A stretch of 57,061 nucleotides of DNA from Bacteroidales bacterium (GTDB taxonomy: Bacteria > Bacteroidota > Bacteroidia > Bacteroidales > UBA932), in contig JAFROJ010000042.1 in assembly GCA_017429765.1 (NCBI GenBank), forward strand, positions 1-57,061, in the 5' to 3' direction. Both the position numbers and the translations under genes were made by a program. Position 1 is the stretch's first letter. Every line of letters begins with the position of its first letter. This document shows, one piece after another, positions 17,714 to 26,511 of this stretch. Below the pieces are notes generated by a model. The model was not told the DNA's origin. It saw nothing but the letters and a program-made list of their open reading frames with translations, and searched no databases.

Positions 17714-18715
17714 ATGGAAGTTCGCGCTAAAAAAGCCCTTGGCCAGCATTTCTTGACTGACCAGTCAATCGCGATGAGGATTGTCGGCGCCCTCGAAGGC
17801 GCGCCAGTCCTCGAGGTCGGCCCCGGCATGGGCGTCCTGACCCGGTACCTGCTTCGCGGCCCCGGCGCAGACACCGAGTCGCCACGCCCCGATGGCATCT
17901 CAGCCGGAGCGGCCGGCCCCGAATTCTCGACCGCCTCGCTTCGCTCGGCCCCTCCCATCGCAAGCGATGGGTCCCTCCCTCTTAACGTGCCGAGGGTGGC
18001 AGTGGTTTCGCCATCCGGGCCGGCCGCCCCGGCCCGGCACCTGAAGGCCATCGAGATCGATAAGGAGAGTGTGGCGTATCTGAAGAAGCGTTTCCCGGAA
18101 CTGGGAGACGGGCTGATAGAGGGAGACTTCCTGAAGATGGATTTAAGTGGCCTGTTCCCGGGGCAATTCTCGATCATCGGCAACTTCCCCTACAACATCT
18201 CCTCGCAGATATTCTTCAAGATAATCGACAACCGGGACCTTGTGCCGGAAGTTGTCTGCATGATCCAGAAGGAGGTGGCCCAGCGTATCGCCGAGAAGCC
18301 CGGCACAAAGACCTACGGCATCCTGTCGGTCTTCCTCCAGGCCTGGTATGACATCGAATATCTCTTCACGGTCGGCCCTGGAGCCTTCAACCCTCCGCCC
18401 AAGGTCCAGTCCGCTGTGATACGACTCACTCGCAACTCCAGGACAGAATTAGGCTGCGACGAGAAGTTGTTCCGCGCGATAGTGAAAACCGCCTTCGGCC
18501 AAAGGCGTAAAACGCTGCGTAACTCGCTGAAGCCTCTCCTTCAACAGGTTCCGGCCCTTCGACAGGCTCATGAACCGGACCGGTCGCTGAGCTTGTCGAA
18601 GCACACCGACCGGCCGAATCTCCGGTTCACCGAAGACCCGGTCTTCGACCTTCGCCCCGAGCGCCTGAGCGTCGAGGACTTCATCGCCCTCACCCTGACC
18701 TTGCAGGGCGAATAG
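17714..18715 (+). CDS. rsmA: 16S rRNA (adenine-N6,N6)-dimethyltransferase with two repeat-derived insertions
   Basis: The N-terminus [13 protein letters not shown] and the SAM motif [15 protein letters not shown] identify RsmA (KsgA). The catalytic motif IV reads [10 protein letters not shown], and the C-terminal domain has [13 protein letters not shown] and ERLSVEDF. The protein is 333 residues, against about 250-280 usually. Two insertions explain the excess. Residues 48-109 sit between motif I and motif II (KAIEIDKES) and are rich in Pro, Ala, Gly and Ser. Residues about 279-300 sit before the C-terminal helix. Both coincide with palindromic DNA repeats (17,909-18,027 and 18,557-18,601), and the frame is kept. 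The ATG at 17,714 is preferred over a GTG at 17,708 that overlaps the promoter box. The essential motifs are intact, so function is probably retained. Confidence 0.95.
17909..18027. repeat. Palindromic interspersed repeat, family C copy 1, inside rsmA
   Basis: An 11-base perfect inverted repeat (GCGGCCGGCCC at 17,909-17,919, GGGCCGGCCGC at 18,017-18,027) brackets a core running from GCCTCGCTTCGCTCGG to GGCAGTGGTT. The core ends with a 29-base stretch (17,979-18,007) identical to one at 26,432-26,460, and it contains an inner hairpin CCCATCGC / GCGATGGG. It lies in frame within the coding sequence and encodes an LNVPRVAVV peptide. Confidence 0.8.
18557..18601. repeat. Palindromic interspersed repeat, family A, inside rsmA
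   Basis: CTTCGACAGGCTCA at 18,557-18,570 pairs with TGAGCTTGTCGAAG at 18,588-18,601 (one mismatch in 14). The element adds about 22 residues near the RsmA C-terminus and keeps the frame. Related copies are in the FAD/Fe-S oxidase, the GH2 gene and downstream of rpsJ. Confidence 0.8.
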
Positions 18716-23454: not shown

Positions 23455-26336
23455 CAGAAGACAAACACTCCCTATTCCTCAACGAGATAAAGGGGTTCAT
23501 CCCCAAGGGAAGGATCCACACCGACGAGCTCAGGCGCCTGGCATGGGGCACAGACGCCGGCTTCTACAGGCTGACCCCAAAGATTGTGGTCAGAAGCGAC
23601 AACGAGAAAGAGGTCTCCCAAGTCCTCGAGGCAGCCTCCAGGCACAATGTCCCCGTCACATTCAGGGCCGCCGGGACAAGCCTCTCGGGCCAGTCGGTAA
23701 GCGACTCGGTGCTGGTCGTGGCCGGGAAAGGCTGGGAGGAATATTCAGTCTCCCCCGACGCCTCGCGAATAACGCTTCAGCCAGGAATAGTCGGGGCGAG
23801 GGTCAACGAGATCCTGCGCCCGCTCGGCCGCAAGTTCGGCCCGGACCCGGCCTCGATCGGGGCCTGCATGATGGGAGGCATCGTGATGAACAACGCCTCC
23901 GGGATGAGTTGCGGCACCCACGCCAACTCCGACAAGGAGATGCTTTCGGCCAGGATGGTACTGGCGGACGGCACCGTGCTGGACACTGGGGACGAGGCCT
24001 CCCGGGACGCCTTCAGGGCGAGCCACCCCGAGTTCATCGAGGAGATCGAGAGGCTCCGGGACGAGATCCAGGAGGACGGGGAGTTCTCGGAAAGGATCCG
24101 GCGCAAGTATTCAATCAAGAACGTGACGGGACTGAATATCCTGCCGTTCCTTCGGTTCGAGGATCCCTTCGACATCATAGCCCACCTCCTCGTGGGGTCG
24201 GAGGGGACCCTCGCCTTCCTGAGCCGGGTCACGATGAAGACCCTTCCGCTCGCTCCGTTCAAGGCGAGCGCCATGATCTATTTCGGATCGATCAGGAAAG
24301 CGGCTGAAGCGGTGGTGGCCCTGAAGAAGGCTGTTGGGATCGAGATTCTGTCAGCCGCCGAGCTGCTGGACAAAAGATCTCTCCTCTCAGTCTCGGATCC
24401 GGCGCTGGAGAGATTCGGGGACACTGACCTCACAGCTGTTCTCACGGAGACGACGGCCCGTACCGCGGAGGAACTGGCCTCCAACATAGCCCGGATAACC
24501 TCCGCCCTTGAAGGGATGGGAGCCCTGACAGGGGTCTCCTTCACCGACGATCCGGCGGTGTATTCAAATTACTGGGCAATCAGGGCCGGGATATTCCCTT
24601 CCGTGGGAGGGATGCGGAAGCAGGGCACGACCTGCCTCATCGAGGATGTCGCCTTCCACATCGAGGATCTGCCGCAGGCCACCGAGGACCTTTCCGCCCT
24701 GCTGGACAGCCACGGCTACGACGATTCCTGCATCTACGGCCACGCCCTTGAGGGCAACTTCCATTTCATAATCAACCAAGCCTTCGACTCCGAGGCCGAG
24801 GTCAGGCGCTACGAGGAGATGATCCGGGACGTGGCGCGGATCGTGGTCGGGAAATATGACGGATCCCTCAAGGCTGAGCACGGGACTGGCCGGAACATGG
24901 CCCCCTTCGTTGAATACGAATGGGGAGCCAAGGCCTTCTCGGTGATGAGGAGGATTAAGGAACTATTTGACCCTAAGGGGATTCTCAATCCCGGGGTGAT
25001 CTTTAACGACGACCCCGAGTGCTTCATCAAGGGGTTCAAGGCCCTCCCCGTCCTGCCTTTCGGGGACAAGGTCAACAAGTGCATCGAGTGCGGTTTCTGC
25101 GAGGTCAACTGCGTGTCCTGCGGCTTCACCCTGTCCTCCAGGACCAGGATCGCCGTGAGGCGCGAGATCGCGAGGCTCCAGGCCCTGGCCGAGCCGACCA
25201 CCGGGGATCTCGTCCTCCTGAAGACCCTGGAGAAGGAATATGCCTATCCGGGCGAGGAGACCTGCGCCGGAGACGGCCTTTGCTCGACCTCCTGCCCTAT
25301 GGGCATCGATGTCGGGGAGATGACCCACCAGCTGCGGCGGGAGAAGACCCTGCCCGGTTCCATGACTTACAGGCTATGGTCCTACGCCTCCGACCACTTC
25401 CCCACCGTCAAAAGCGGGATACGAGGGGTTCTCAGGTTGGCATCCGCCGGAGACGCGGTCCTGGGCGACAAGGCCATGGCGGGCCTTTGCAAAGGCCTCC
25501 ACAAAGGCGTGGGGCTTCCTCTCTGGACCCCCTCCACCCCCAAGGCGTATTCAGTGGTTCGACTGGGCTCACCAACCATTACGGTCCCTGAGCCTGTCGA
25601 AGGGGTCGTGGTTCGACAAGCTCACCAACCGGACAAAGTGGTCTATTTCCCGTCCTGCATCAACCAGATGATGGGACTTCCCCGCCACACCCACTTGGTT
25701 GACAAGCCCCTGGTCGAGGAGATGGTCAGCCTGATCCGCAAGGCCGGCTGGGAAGTGATATTCCCGAAAAGCATGGAAAGGCTCTGCTGCGGCACGATCT
25801 GGGAGAGCAAGGGCATGCCGGACCTTGCCGACAAAAAGTCGGAAGAGCTGGAGAAAGCCCTTTGGGAGGCCTCCGAAGGGGGTCGGTGGCCGGTGCTCTG
25901 CGACCAGAGTCCCTGCCTGCACAGGATGAGGAAGAAGGTCAAGTCCATGAGGCTGTATGAGCCGGCCGAGTTCATAATGACCTTCCTCAAGGACAGTCTG
26001 GTGTTCCATCCGGACGACACTCCCGTGGCGGTCCACGCGACTTGCTCGACAAGGCTGATGGGGCTCAAGGACACAATAGTGTCCCTCGCCAGGCTATGCT
26101 CAAAAAATGTTATAGTCCCAGACGAGGTCGGCTGCTGCGGATTCGCGGGCGACAAGGGGATGACCCATCCCGAGCTGAACGCCTGGGCGCTGCGAAAGCT
26201 CAAAAGCCAGGTGGAAGGCGTCCCGGTCGGCTATTCCAACTCCCGCACCTGCGAGATCGGCCTGGCCACCAACTCCGGAATCCCTTACGTCTCCATCGCT
26301 TATCTTGTCAATTCCCACACCTCCGCGAAGGGGTAA
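23451..26336 (+). CDS. FAD-linked oxidase/Fe-S protein (D-lactate dehydrogenase or glycolate-oxidase-like fusion)
   Basis: 961 residues. The N-terminal half is a FAD-binding PCMH domain plus GlcD-type C-terminal domain (FRAAGTSLSGQSV, DPASIGACMMGG, GSEGTLAFLSRV, KAEHGTGRNMAP). It is followed by 4Fe-4S ferredoxin motifs CIECGFCEVNC and CAGDGLCSTSCPMG, and then CCG domains with VVYFPSCINQ, CCGTIWES and EVGCCGFAGDKG. This architecture oxidises 2-hydroxyacids such as D-lactate at the membrane and passes electrons on. Residues about 701-727 (PEPVEGVVVRQAHQ) are a translation of a palindromic repeat (25,554-25,630) placed in the linker before the first CCG domain. The gene is coupled to DUF456. Confidence 0.9.
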   Translation: MTEDKHSLFLNEIKGFIPKGRIHTDELRRLAWGTDAGFYRLTPKIVVRSDNEKEVSQVLEAASRHNVPVTFRAAGTSLSGQSVSDSVLVVAGKGWEEYSVSPDASRITLQPGIVGARVNEILRPLGRKFGPDPASIGACMMGGIVMNNASGMSCGTHANSDKEMLSARMVLADGTVLDTGDEASRDAFRASHPEFIEEIERLRDEIQEDGEFSERIRRKYSIKNVTGLNILPFLRFEDPFDIIAHLLVGSEGTLAFLSRVTMKTLPLAPFKASAMIYFGSIRKAAEAVVALKKAVGIEILSAAELLDKRSLLSVSDPALERFGDTDLTAVLTETTARTAEELASNIARITSALEGMGALTGVSFTDDPAVYSNYWAIRAGIFPSVGGMRKQGTTCLIEDVAFHIEDLPQATEDLSALLDSHGYDDSCIYGHALEGNFHFIINQAFDSEAEVRRYEEMIRDVARIVVGKYDGSLKAEHGTGRNMAPFVEYEWGAKAFSVMRRIKELFDPKGILNPGVIFNDDPECFIKGFKALPVLPFGDKVNKCIECGFCEVNCVSCGFTLSSRTRIAVRREIARLQALAEPTTGDLVLLKTLEKEYAYPGEETCAGDGLCSTSCPMGIDVGEMTHQLRREKTLPGSMTYRLWSYASDHFPTVKSGIRGVLRLASAGDAVLGDKAMAGLCKGLHKGVGLPLWTPSTPKAYSVVRLGSPTITVPEPVEGVVVRQAHQPDKVVYFPSCINQMMGLPRHTHLVDKPLVEEMVSLIRKAGWEVIFPKSMERLCCGTIWESKGMPDLADKKSEELEKALWEASEGGRWPVLCDQSPCLHRMRKKVKSMRLYEPAEFIMTFLKDSLVFHPDDTPVAVHATCSTRLMGLKDTIVSLARLCSKNVIVPDEVGCCGFAGDKGMTHPELNAWALRKLKSQVEGVPVGYSNSRTCEIGLATNSGIPYVSIAYLVNSHTSAKG
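25554..25630. repeat. Palindromic interspersed repeat, family A, inside the FAD/Fe-S oxidase
   Basis: GTGGTTCGACTGGGCTCA followed by CCAACC (25,554-25,577) and GTGGTTCGACAAGCTCA followed by CCAACC (25,608-25,630) flank GGTCCCTGAGCCTGTCGAAG (from 25,583), which is complementary to both. The frame is maintained and encodes about 27 extra residues. Confidence 0.82.
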
Positions 26337-26478
26337 AAACCTTTGTCCCCTGAACCGCCGCTTCGCGGCCCCACCGTTCGACTTGCTCACGGCAAGGCGT
26401 TCGCCTCGCTCCGCGCGGCTCCGGCCCCCCTCTCTTAACGTGCCGAGGGTGGCAGTGGTTCAGGGGGCAAAGGTTTTT
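26335..26478. repeat. Palindromic interspersed repeat, family C copy 2, intergenic
   Basis: 22-base inverted arms (26,335-26,356 and 26,457-26,478, one mismatch; left arm AAAAACCTTTG plus TCCCCTGAACC) enclose a GC-rich core that ends with the same 29 bases as the copy inside rsmA. The core also contains CGTTCGACTTGCTCACGGC, related to family A. It starts at the stop codon of the oxidase gene and fills most of the 190-base gap before the cytochrome operon. Confidence 0.82.
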
Positions 26479-26511
26479 GCCGCTGGAATTTGATTTGATT
26501 AGGAATATTCG

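Follow-up and report, generated by a model that had tools for sequence, protein, structure and literature searches.

Rickettsia is the best-known case of palindromic repeats that lie in frame within important genes. Rickettsia palindromic elements (RPEs) are dispersed palindromes of ~150 bp, many of which lie in frame in unrelated open reading frames (ORFs) with a conserved peptide (PMC10969869). In R. africae, an 88-kb inversion is bounded by copies of RPE-6 (PMC2694212). RPE-4 and RPE-6 have been identified as REPs of the CGTC type, a type described from Bacteroidetes among other phyla, and intragenic REPs are described in several species (PMC3733652). The element presented here, found in Bacteroidales, shares with GTAG and CGTC REPs a palindromic sequence, a position mostly downstream of genes (its 3′-end bias resembles the one reported for REPs), and an occurrence in unrelated ORFs as well; REPs are single hairpins of 20–40 bp with a tag at one end, whereas the element is 110–160 nt long and has four helices (PMC3733652). 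CGTC occurs in many copies of the element at the junction of helices P1 and P2, not at the end as in REPs.

MITEs resemble the element in being short, dispersed, bounded by inverted-repeat ends and presumably moved in trans, but the arms of the element are inconstant within the genus (they are constant in the ten G520 loci printed) and no parent element was found. PARCEL coding repeats are palindromic DNA that is translated, as the element would be; however, they consist of 75-nt units in tandem and occur mainly in membrane proteins and not in recognizable housekeeping genes (PMC2996958), whereas the element forms single insertions in housekeeping enzymes. Wolbachia palindromic repeats and coding palindromes of M. 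jannaschii, which appear as titles cited in the same source, provide coding palindromes outside Rickettsia (PMC2996958). In the open-licence literature, judged from listings, there was no report of such a repeat in Bacteroidales.

The window (the whole stretch of DNA analyzed, 57,061 nt) was contig 27 of a 2.36 Mb genome in 75 contigs, and the genus is presumably Candidatus Cryptobacteroides. Other genomes and loci are given below by G and L numbers, respectively. The original prediction placed an inverted repeat at 17909–18027, within an insertion in RsmA. The ~62 extra RsmA codons did coincide with an inverted repeat, with slightly wider bounds (17903–18033). The features of the locus are collected in Table 1.

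Table 1. Features of the rsmA locus and of the second copy of the element (window coordinates).
Feature	Position	Strand	Basis or remark
rsmA (16S rRNA A1518/A1519 dimethyltransferase)	17714..18715	+	333 aa from ATG; NCBIfam TIGR00755, Pfam RrnaAD
Extra codons 48-109 of RsmA	17855..18040	+	Alignment gap in 25/28 relatives
Palindromic element, outer arm to outer arm	17903..18033	.	131 nt; repeat finder, fold, copy comparison
P1 left arm, locus-specific sequence	17903..17932	.	Inner part by comparison with other copies
P2, 17-nt form	17933..17949	.	Read against other copies
P3 hairpin CCCATC..GATGGG	17954..17971	.	
CCCTC, proposed pseudoknot strand	17977..17981	.	Covarying letters in other copies
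P4 hairpin, GAGGGT loop	17985..18003	.	
P1 right arm	18004..18033	.	
Second, unrelated palindrome CTTCGACAGGCTCA..TGAGCTTGTCGAAG	18557..18601	.	In frame, C-terminal part of RsmA
Second copy of the element, intergenic	26329..26484	+	156 nt; left arm overlaps upstream gene's stop codon

In a profile search the rsmA product matched TIGR00755 at 8.5e-70 (235 bits against a cut-off of 171), and Pfam RrnaAD recognized it as well. This NCBIfam match (ksgA) fell into two stretches, the better of which began at residue 107. The reading frame runs through the element free of stops. In the suggested presence/absence alignment, 25 of 28 aligned relatives had no residues at the insertion site, and the remaining three had other or inverted inserts. 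With inserts excluded, comparison with the rsmA genes of G131 (235 codons) and G115 (237 codons) gave dS ~1.0, dN ~0.07 and dN/dS ~0.07; rsmA is under purifying selection. The site lies between what we take to be motifs I and II, and the structure 3tqs has three residues there in the alignment. Its alignment position suggests that the insert would loop out of the fold, as a translated loop rich in Pro, Ala, Ser and Gly between the two motifs. The same gene carries a second palindrome that the original prediction had not mentioned (18557–18601), the half-site pattern of which had 40 exact matches genome-wide.

The repeat finder gave 90% complementarity for the arms 17903–17922 and 18014–18033, which extend inwards to 17932 and 18004 by comparison with other copies. 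Folded as RNA, 17903–18033 reached −74.8 kcal/mol against a shuffled mean of −56.1 (z −4.5); folded as DNA it gave a z of −2.8, and no shuffle matched the fold energy of either. The minimum-energy fold pairs part of the P2 segment (17933–17949) otherwise. The CTCTTA of this copy begins at 17979. Covariance model R1 matched the RsmA copy at 17919–18018 with 57.4 bits and the second copy at 26343–26470 with 62.6 bits. Rfam 15 at gathering thresholds found only two tRNAs in the window and had no match at the element; up to E 5, seven copy-bearing loci gave four sub-gathering matches, none of them at the copy through which the locus had been picked.

The 29-base core occurred exactly at 17979–18007 and 26432–26460 and was absent from shuffles of the window. 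Its recurrence in non-coding DNA, as foreseen, turned out to be part of a complete intergenic element and not a fragment of an rsmA duplicate. This second copy was missing at its site in five relatives that have both flanking genes. Genome-wide, the 29-base core had 27 matches at up to three mismatches and its reversed control had none, so the two occurrences are no chance pair; a 22-base core had 32 matches. The description as a selfish-looking repeat in frame in a housekeeping gene thus holds, with the element absent there in most relatives and the family dispersed.

With the four variable bases of the core left free and one mismatch allowed, carriers made up 105 of the 398 genomes sampled from the GTDB family and belonged to four of 25 genera. 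An earlier scan with the core variant of this genome had found only one of 99 genomes, because four core bases vary between species. Within the genus sample, 121 of 250 genomes matched this variant at up to three mismatches. A covariance model found the element at E ≤1e-4 in at least five of 295 genomes of the order, this one included; 14 candidates were scored per genome under strict filters, and the count is a lower bound because the model recovers 13 copies in this genome. Among the matches listed (at least 117 stretches with the core pattern), all were titled Bacteroidales or Bacteroidia and most came from ruminant guts; hosts included goat, yak, buffalo, deer and sheep. Viral contigs contained no exact match to the core pattern, so no phage vehicle was seen.

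In total, 209 copies were parsed, 179 passed the P2 filter, and 63 with a CCCATC-like P3 were chosen for alignment. Copies were ~110–160 nt long, had a core in common and folded into four helices, namely three hairpins and an outer stem (roughly 20–35 bp) that varies between loci but is self-complementary. Eighteen core bases were invariant, in part because the copies had been gathered by the pattern CTCTTANNNNGCCGAGGGTGGC, which fixes these 18 bases. Across the 63 copies all 14 P1 pairs had changed on both sides, 381 cells showed both-side changes (157 in shuffles), and the covariation score was 0.402 against 0.169. Cells were paired in 81.7% of cases against 67.1% in shuffled alignments, a percentage depressed by P1 registers that are off by one base in some copies, and against at most 56.1% in slid alignments, a control that leans towards the counted structure because this was named by the authors from one copy (L117). 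Compensated variation was found in P1, P2, inner P3 and outer P4; one P4 pair was kept in just 19 of 63 copies, and further pair types were no more frequent than in shuffles (69 vs. 69.2). RNAalifold alone returned a consensus with P2 and the CCCTC/GAGGG pairs, without P1 or P4.

The outer arms were nearly private to each locus: the 16-nt left arms took 166 distinct forms among 179 copies, and pairing at 12 or more of 14 positions was reached by 124 of the 179 copies with their own arms and by 133 of the 3564 swapped combinations. The GAGGG loop can pair with the upstream CCCTC. These letters read ACGGG and CCCGT in copies from G005 and G371, and ACGG and CCGT stand at the pseudoknot positions of a second G520 repeat; such double changes support a pseudoknot, which is likely on this comparative evidence. 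In G520 all ten loci printed have the arm AAGGAATATGCTT, so the arms belong to the unit, and they would probably diverge together later. An autonomous parent sought in G520 through this constant arm gave 46 hits at up to one mismatch, of which the paired ones mostly stood ~100 nt apart and the others were solitary or tandem; no long internal segment was seen among the hits listed. In several G520 loci, L331, L315 and L320 among them, the constant arms were accompanied by partial arm repeats in tandem at a spacing of 78 nt and by the second repeat.

Placement was tested for 172 copies flanked on each side by 900 nt or more: 22 from this genome, 100 from the named collection, 27 from G309 and 23 from G164, a set in which a few named-collection copies duplicate G309 or G164 ones and related copies are not independent. 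Copies lie closely 3′ of stop codons or in frame in conserved genes, in both orientations. An open frame through the element with at least 60 codons on both sides was found for 82 copies, seven of them in this genome; three more copies of this genome were open with 44–58 codons on one side. The ten in-frame copies of this genome lie in nine genes recognized by Pfam: RsmA, GH3 (two), class I/II aminotransferase, periplasmic binding protein, class III aminotransferase, IspH/LytB, PDH-E2-like acyltransferase, PurD, and RsmF. Among 19 further element-bearing ORFs (of 79 available; some ORFs in the copy set may be spurious), 18 hit Pfam families, in proteins that we take to include RibF, TrmB (three genomes), RsmH, RNase R-like, MetH, MiaA, RecQ, and FtsK; these common names are our own assignments. 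The nineteenth, L289, had no Pfam match in a wrongly chosen frame, and its correct frame was open. In TrmB (L172, L219, L295) and IspH (L022, L171, L212, L278) the element was found at about one place in several genomes, and IspH in L297 (G164) has an apparent GSGGST remnant.

Mostly one reading frame was used per orientation. For CTCTTA, 33 of 44 ORF copies in forward orientation had phase 1 and 31 of 38 in reverse orientation had phase 0, which yields two peptide types (written with 23 and 31 letters). Non-ORF copies, too, had these frames open more often than the others (50/90 and 37/90), so part of the phase bias is mere openness. The 17-nt and 13-nt forms of P2 numbered 42 and 15 in ORFs and 20 and 53 outside them (p 1.9e-7), a comparison that left out 42 copies with other P2 forms.

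By a longest-ORF rule, the 172 copies divide into 90 within ORFs, 48 with tandem, 25 with convergent and five with divergent neighboring ORFs, and four with no near ORF. The spacing between stop codon and element, taken in 98 cases, had a median of 8 nt and was 30 nt or less in 79. A T-rich stretch followed the right arm in two of 90 non-ORF copies, as on the other strand (2/90) and at random places (2/90); being no commoner than at random, such stretches indicate that the elements are not ordinary T-tailed terminators. At the L013 site, a terminator-like hairpin stands in place of the element in two relatives. Target-site duplications were unreadable, the empty sites coming from relatives with ~70–98% flank identity. 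Insertion into a pre-existing hairpin was discarded as an idea: empty sites read by eye had no such palindrome, except the candidate L302, whose palindrome may equally be a remnant.

Orientation often differs at shared sites of sister species. Between G309 and G164, an orthologous G164 stretch was found for 21 of 27 G309 copies: nine copies had the same orientation, eight were inverted (8/17 shared sites), and four were scored absent, one of which (L274 8391) is a variant copy with three, not four, variable bases; six had no fetched region. In four of the eight inverted sites the arms moved with the core, some with matched changes (L274/L310, L285/L303, L292/L299, L289/L308). Two inverted sites, L283/L301 and L284/L300, lie within composite arrays with other repeats. 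At L281/L306 and L277/L294 the arms differ, and these may be separate insertions. The Fe-S protein gene at L289/L308 is open in both orientations, with 677 codons and no stops when the element is flipped, and the FtsK genes of both species (L277/L294) contain the element in frame, with opposite orientations. Six of the nine same-orientation elements were identical at 153 of 155 positions (the others at 147/154, 142/155, and 138/155) between flanks of 86–91% identity; for a dead selfish repeat, the conservation of the six is higher than would be expected. Identity near shared copies, computed as a possible sign of gene conversion, was 91% in the nearest 100 nt and 86–89% beyond 200 nt, alike for same and inverted pairs.

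At the RsmA site itself, one of the three exceptions among the aligned relatives, G131, has the element inverted and in frame together with another repeat; G115 has a different palindrome, and G139, from another family, an unrelated insert. Fourteen further hand-picked relatives were inspected there. G332 has the element in the same orientation as here, and G309 and G266 have inserts bearing the core motif. G841 has a palindrome of the G115 type, G193 and G164 have the peptide VILSEAKN at the same loop (L358, L363), G282 and G170 have other linkers, and short linkers were found in G210, G272, G215, G840, G797, and G836. Since several repeat families occupy this one loop across relatives, the loop is a landing place for them. 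Among the 28 and 14 relatives, those bearing the insert (G131, G332, G309, G266) all have the family elsewhere, and none lacking the family shared the insert.

Other observations were made on these sequences. At the same site, RsmA of G115 and G841 carries another coding palindrome family, which contains CTGCGGCTGAGT and is found in GH3 too (L056, L356, the L274 GH3 region, L310), and RsmA of G282 resembles its empty site at the protein level. A repeat peptide STPLHPQGGLRGVPLR adjoins the element in RsmA of G131, where it is tandem, and of G266 (L057, L362). In RsmA of G193 the strand that follows the VILSEAKN loop is partly duplicated as well. RsmA of G121 and G113 (L066, L078) has longer inserts elsewhere, immediately before motif I.

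The likeness to RPEs raised in the original prediction stands as an analogy and fails as membership. Like RPEs, the Bacteroidales element forms palindromes (131 and 156 nt in the window), with 27–32 core matches in this genome, and is inserted in frame in ORFs that are unrelated to one another, where it encodes a conserved peptide. Unlike RPEs, it has a Bacteroidales host, a four-helix core with a likely pseudoknot and a locus-specific outer stem. Its opposite orientations at the same site in sister species may be a further difference. Given the architecture, the locus-specific arms and the opposite orientations at shared sites, the element was classed with coding palindromic repeats and not as an RPE; RPEs are its nearest functional analogue.

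The reading preferred here, which is held to be likely, is that Bacteroidales, chiefly those living in the guts of ruminants, harbor a palindromic repeat family that is non-autonomous, that would be translated in RsmA as a tolerated loop and whose arm matching and inversion probably come about by template switching. Template switching is known biology. The element would move as a foldback unit, in trans, by a putative enzyme, for which a Y1 transposase is a candidate, and would persist at nearly neutral positions, namely gene 3′ ends, loops, and linkers. The 17-nt form of P2 may have become suited to coding. Matching arms would let the replication machinery switch templates, by which arms are re-matched and the center is flipped; flipping within genes would be survivable because both strands offer a stop-free frame. 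A stronger form, a class of coding mobile element that is a pseudoknotted four-helix foldback open on both strands, inserts and repeatedly inverts in essential genes, changes a loop of 40–60 residues each time and has its outer stem re-matched, is put forward tentatively and is rather doubtful.

The proximity of non-ORF copies to stop codons, their tandem or convergent rather than divergent settings, the terminator-like hairpin at the L013 site and the conservation above that of the flanks in six of nine same-orientation pairs would all suit a functional RNA, that is, a 3′-end hairpin (terminator or mRNA-end protector) selected for its structure, with the in-gene copies as stray insertions. 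Such a role is nevertheless unlikely: orientation differs at eight of 17 shared sites although the core is strand-specific, T-rich stretches are as rare as at random on either strand, and 90 of 172 copies lie inside ORFs by the simple rule. Equally improbable is a REP-type repeat with a RAYT-like Y1 (HUH) transposase as its mobilizing enzyme. REPs within genes have been described (PMC3733652), and Y1_Tnp (PF01797) was matched at E ≤0.001 in all 13 chosen carriers of the genus, in 12 over the cut-off; however, most matches were weak, three carriers outside the genus (G005, G520, G550) had none, and the element differs from REPs in size and shape. PF01797 matches also occurred in seven of 14 genus genomes of a comparison set meant as zero-copy, a set compromised because G114 (24 copies) and G084 (two copies) are carriers and of which seven others lie outside the 398-genome sample; among the five with no element hits (G022, G111, G116, G120, G188), one has a match.

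The structured, strand-specific and pseudoknot-like core would also fit a self-removing, intron-like RNA that leaves RsmA without the insert. This is very improbable, as one protein site can hold the element in frame in either orientation, the reading frame is kept, copies lie outside genes too, and seven copy-bearing loci searched with Rfam up to E 5 gave no match at the element. That the named sources are metagenome-assembled genomes might suggest an assembly or binning artefact, an explanation of negligible probability that separate assemblies already contradict: the family is present in assemblies from goat, yak, buffalo, deer, sheep and other samples, many copies lie mid-contig with colinear orthologs in another genome, and rsmA reads through without a stop.

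A family of tolerated palindromic repeats, the reading preferred above, matters in several ways. The clade is large and well sampled, and at a single RsmA site sister species show different orientations, different repeat families, and presence or absence, so insertion, inversion, and loss are measurable. The element is a natural test of the tolerance of proteins for parasitic DNA, and its structured core gives a starting point in the search for the enzyme that mobilizes repeats of this kind. Annotation by homology should be prepared for these peptides, which it will encounter in many proteins that are otherwise unrelated.
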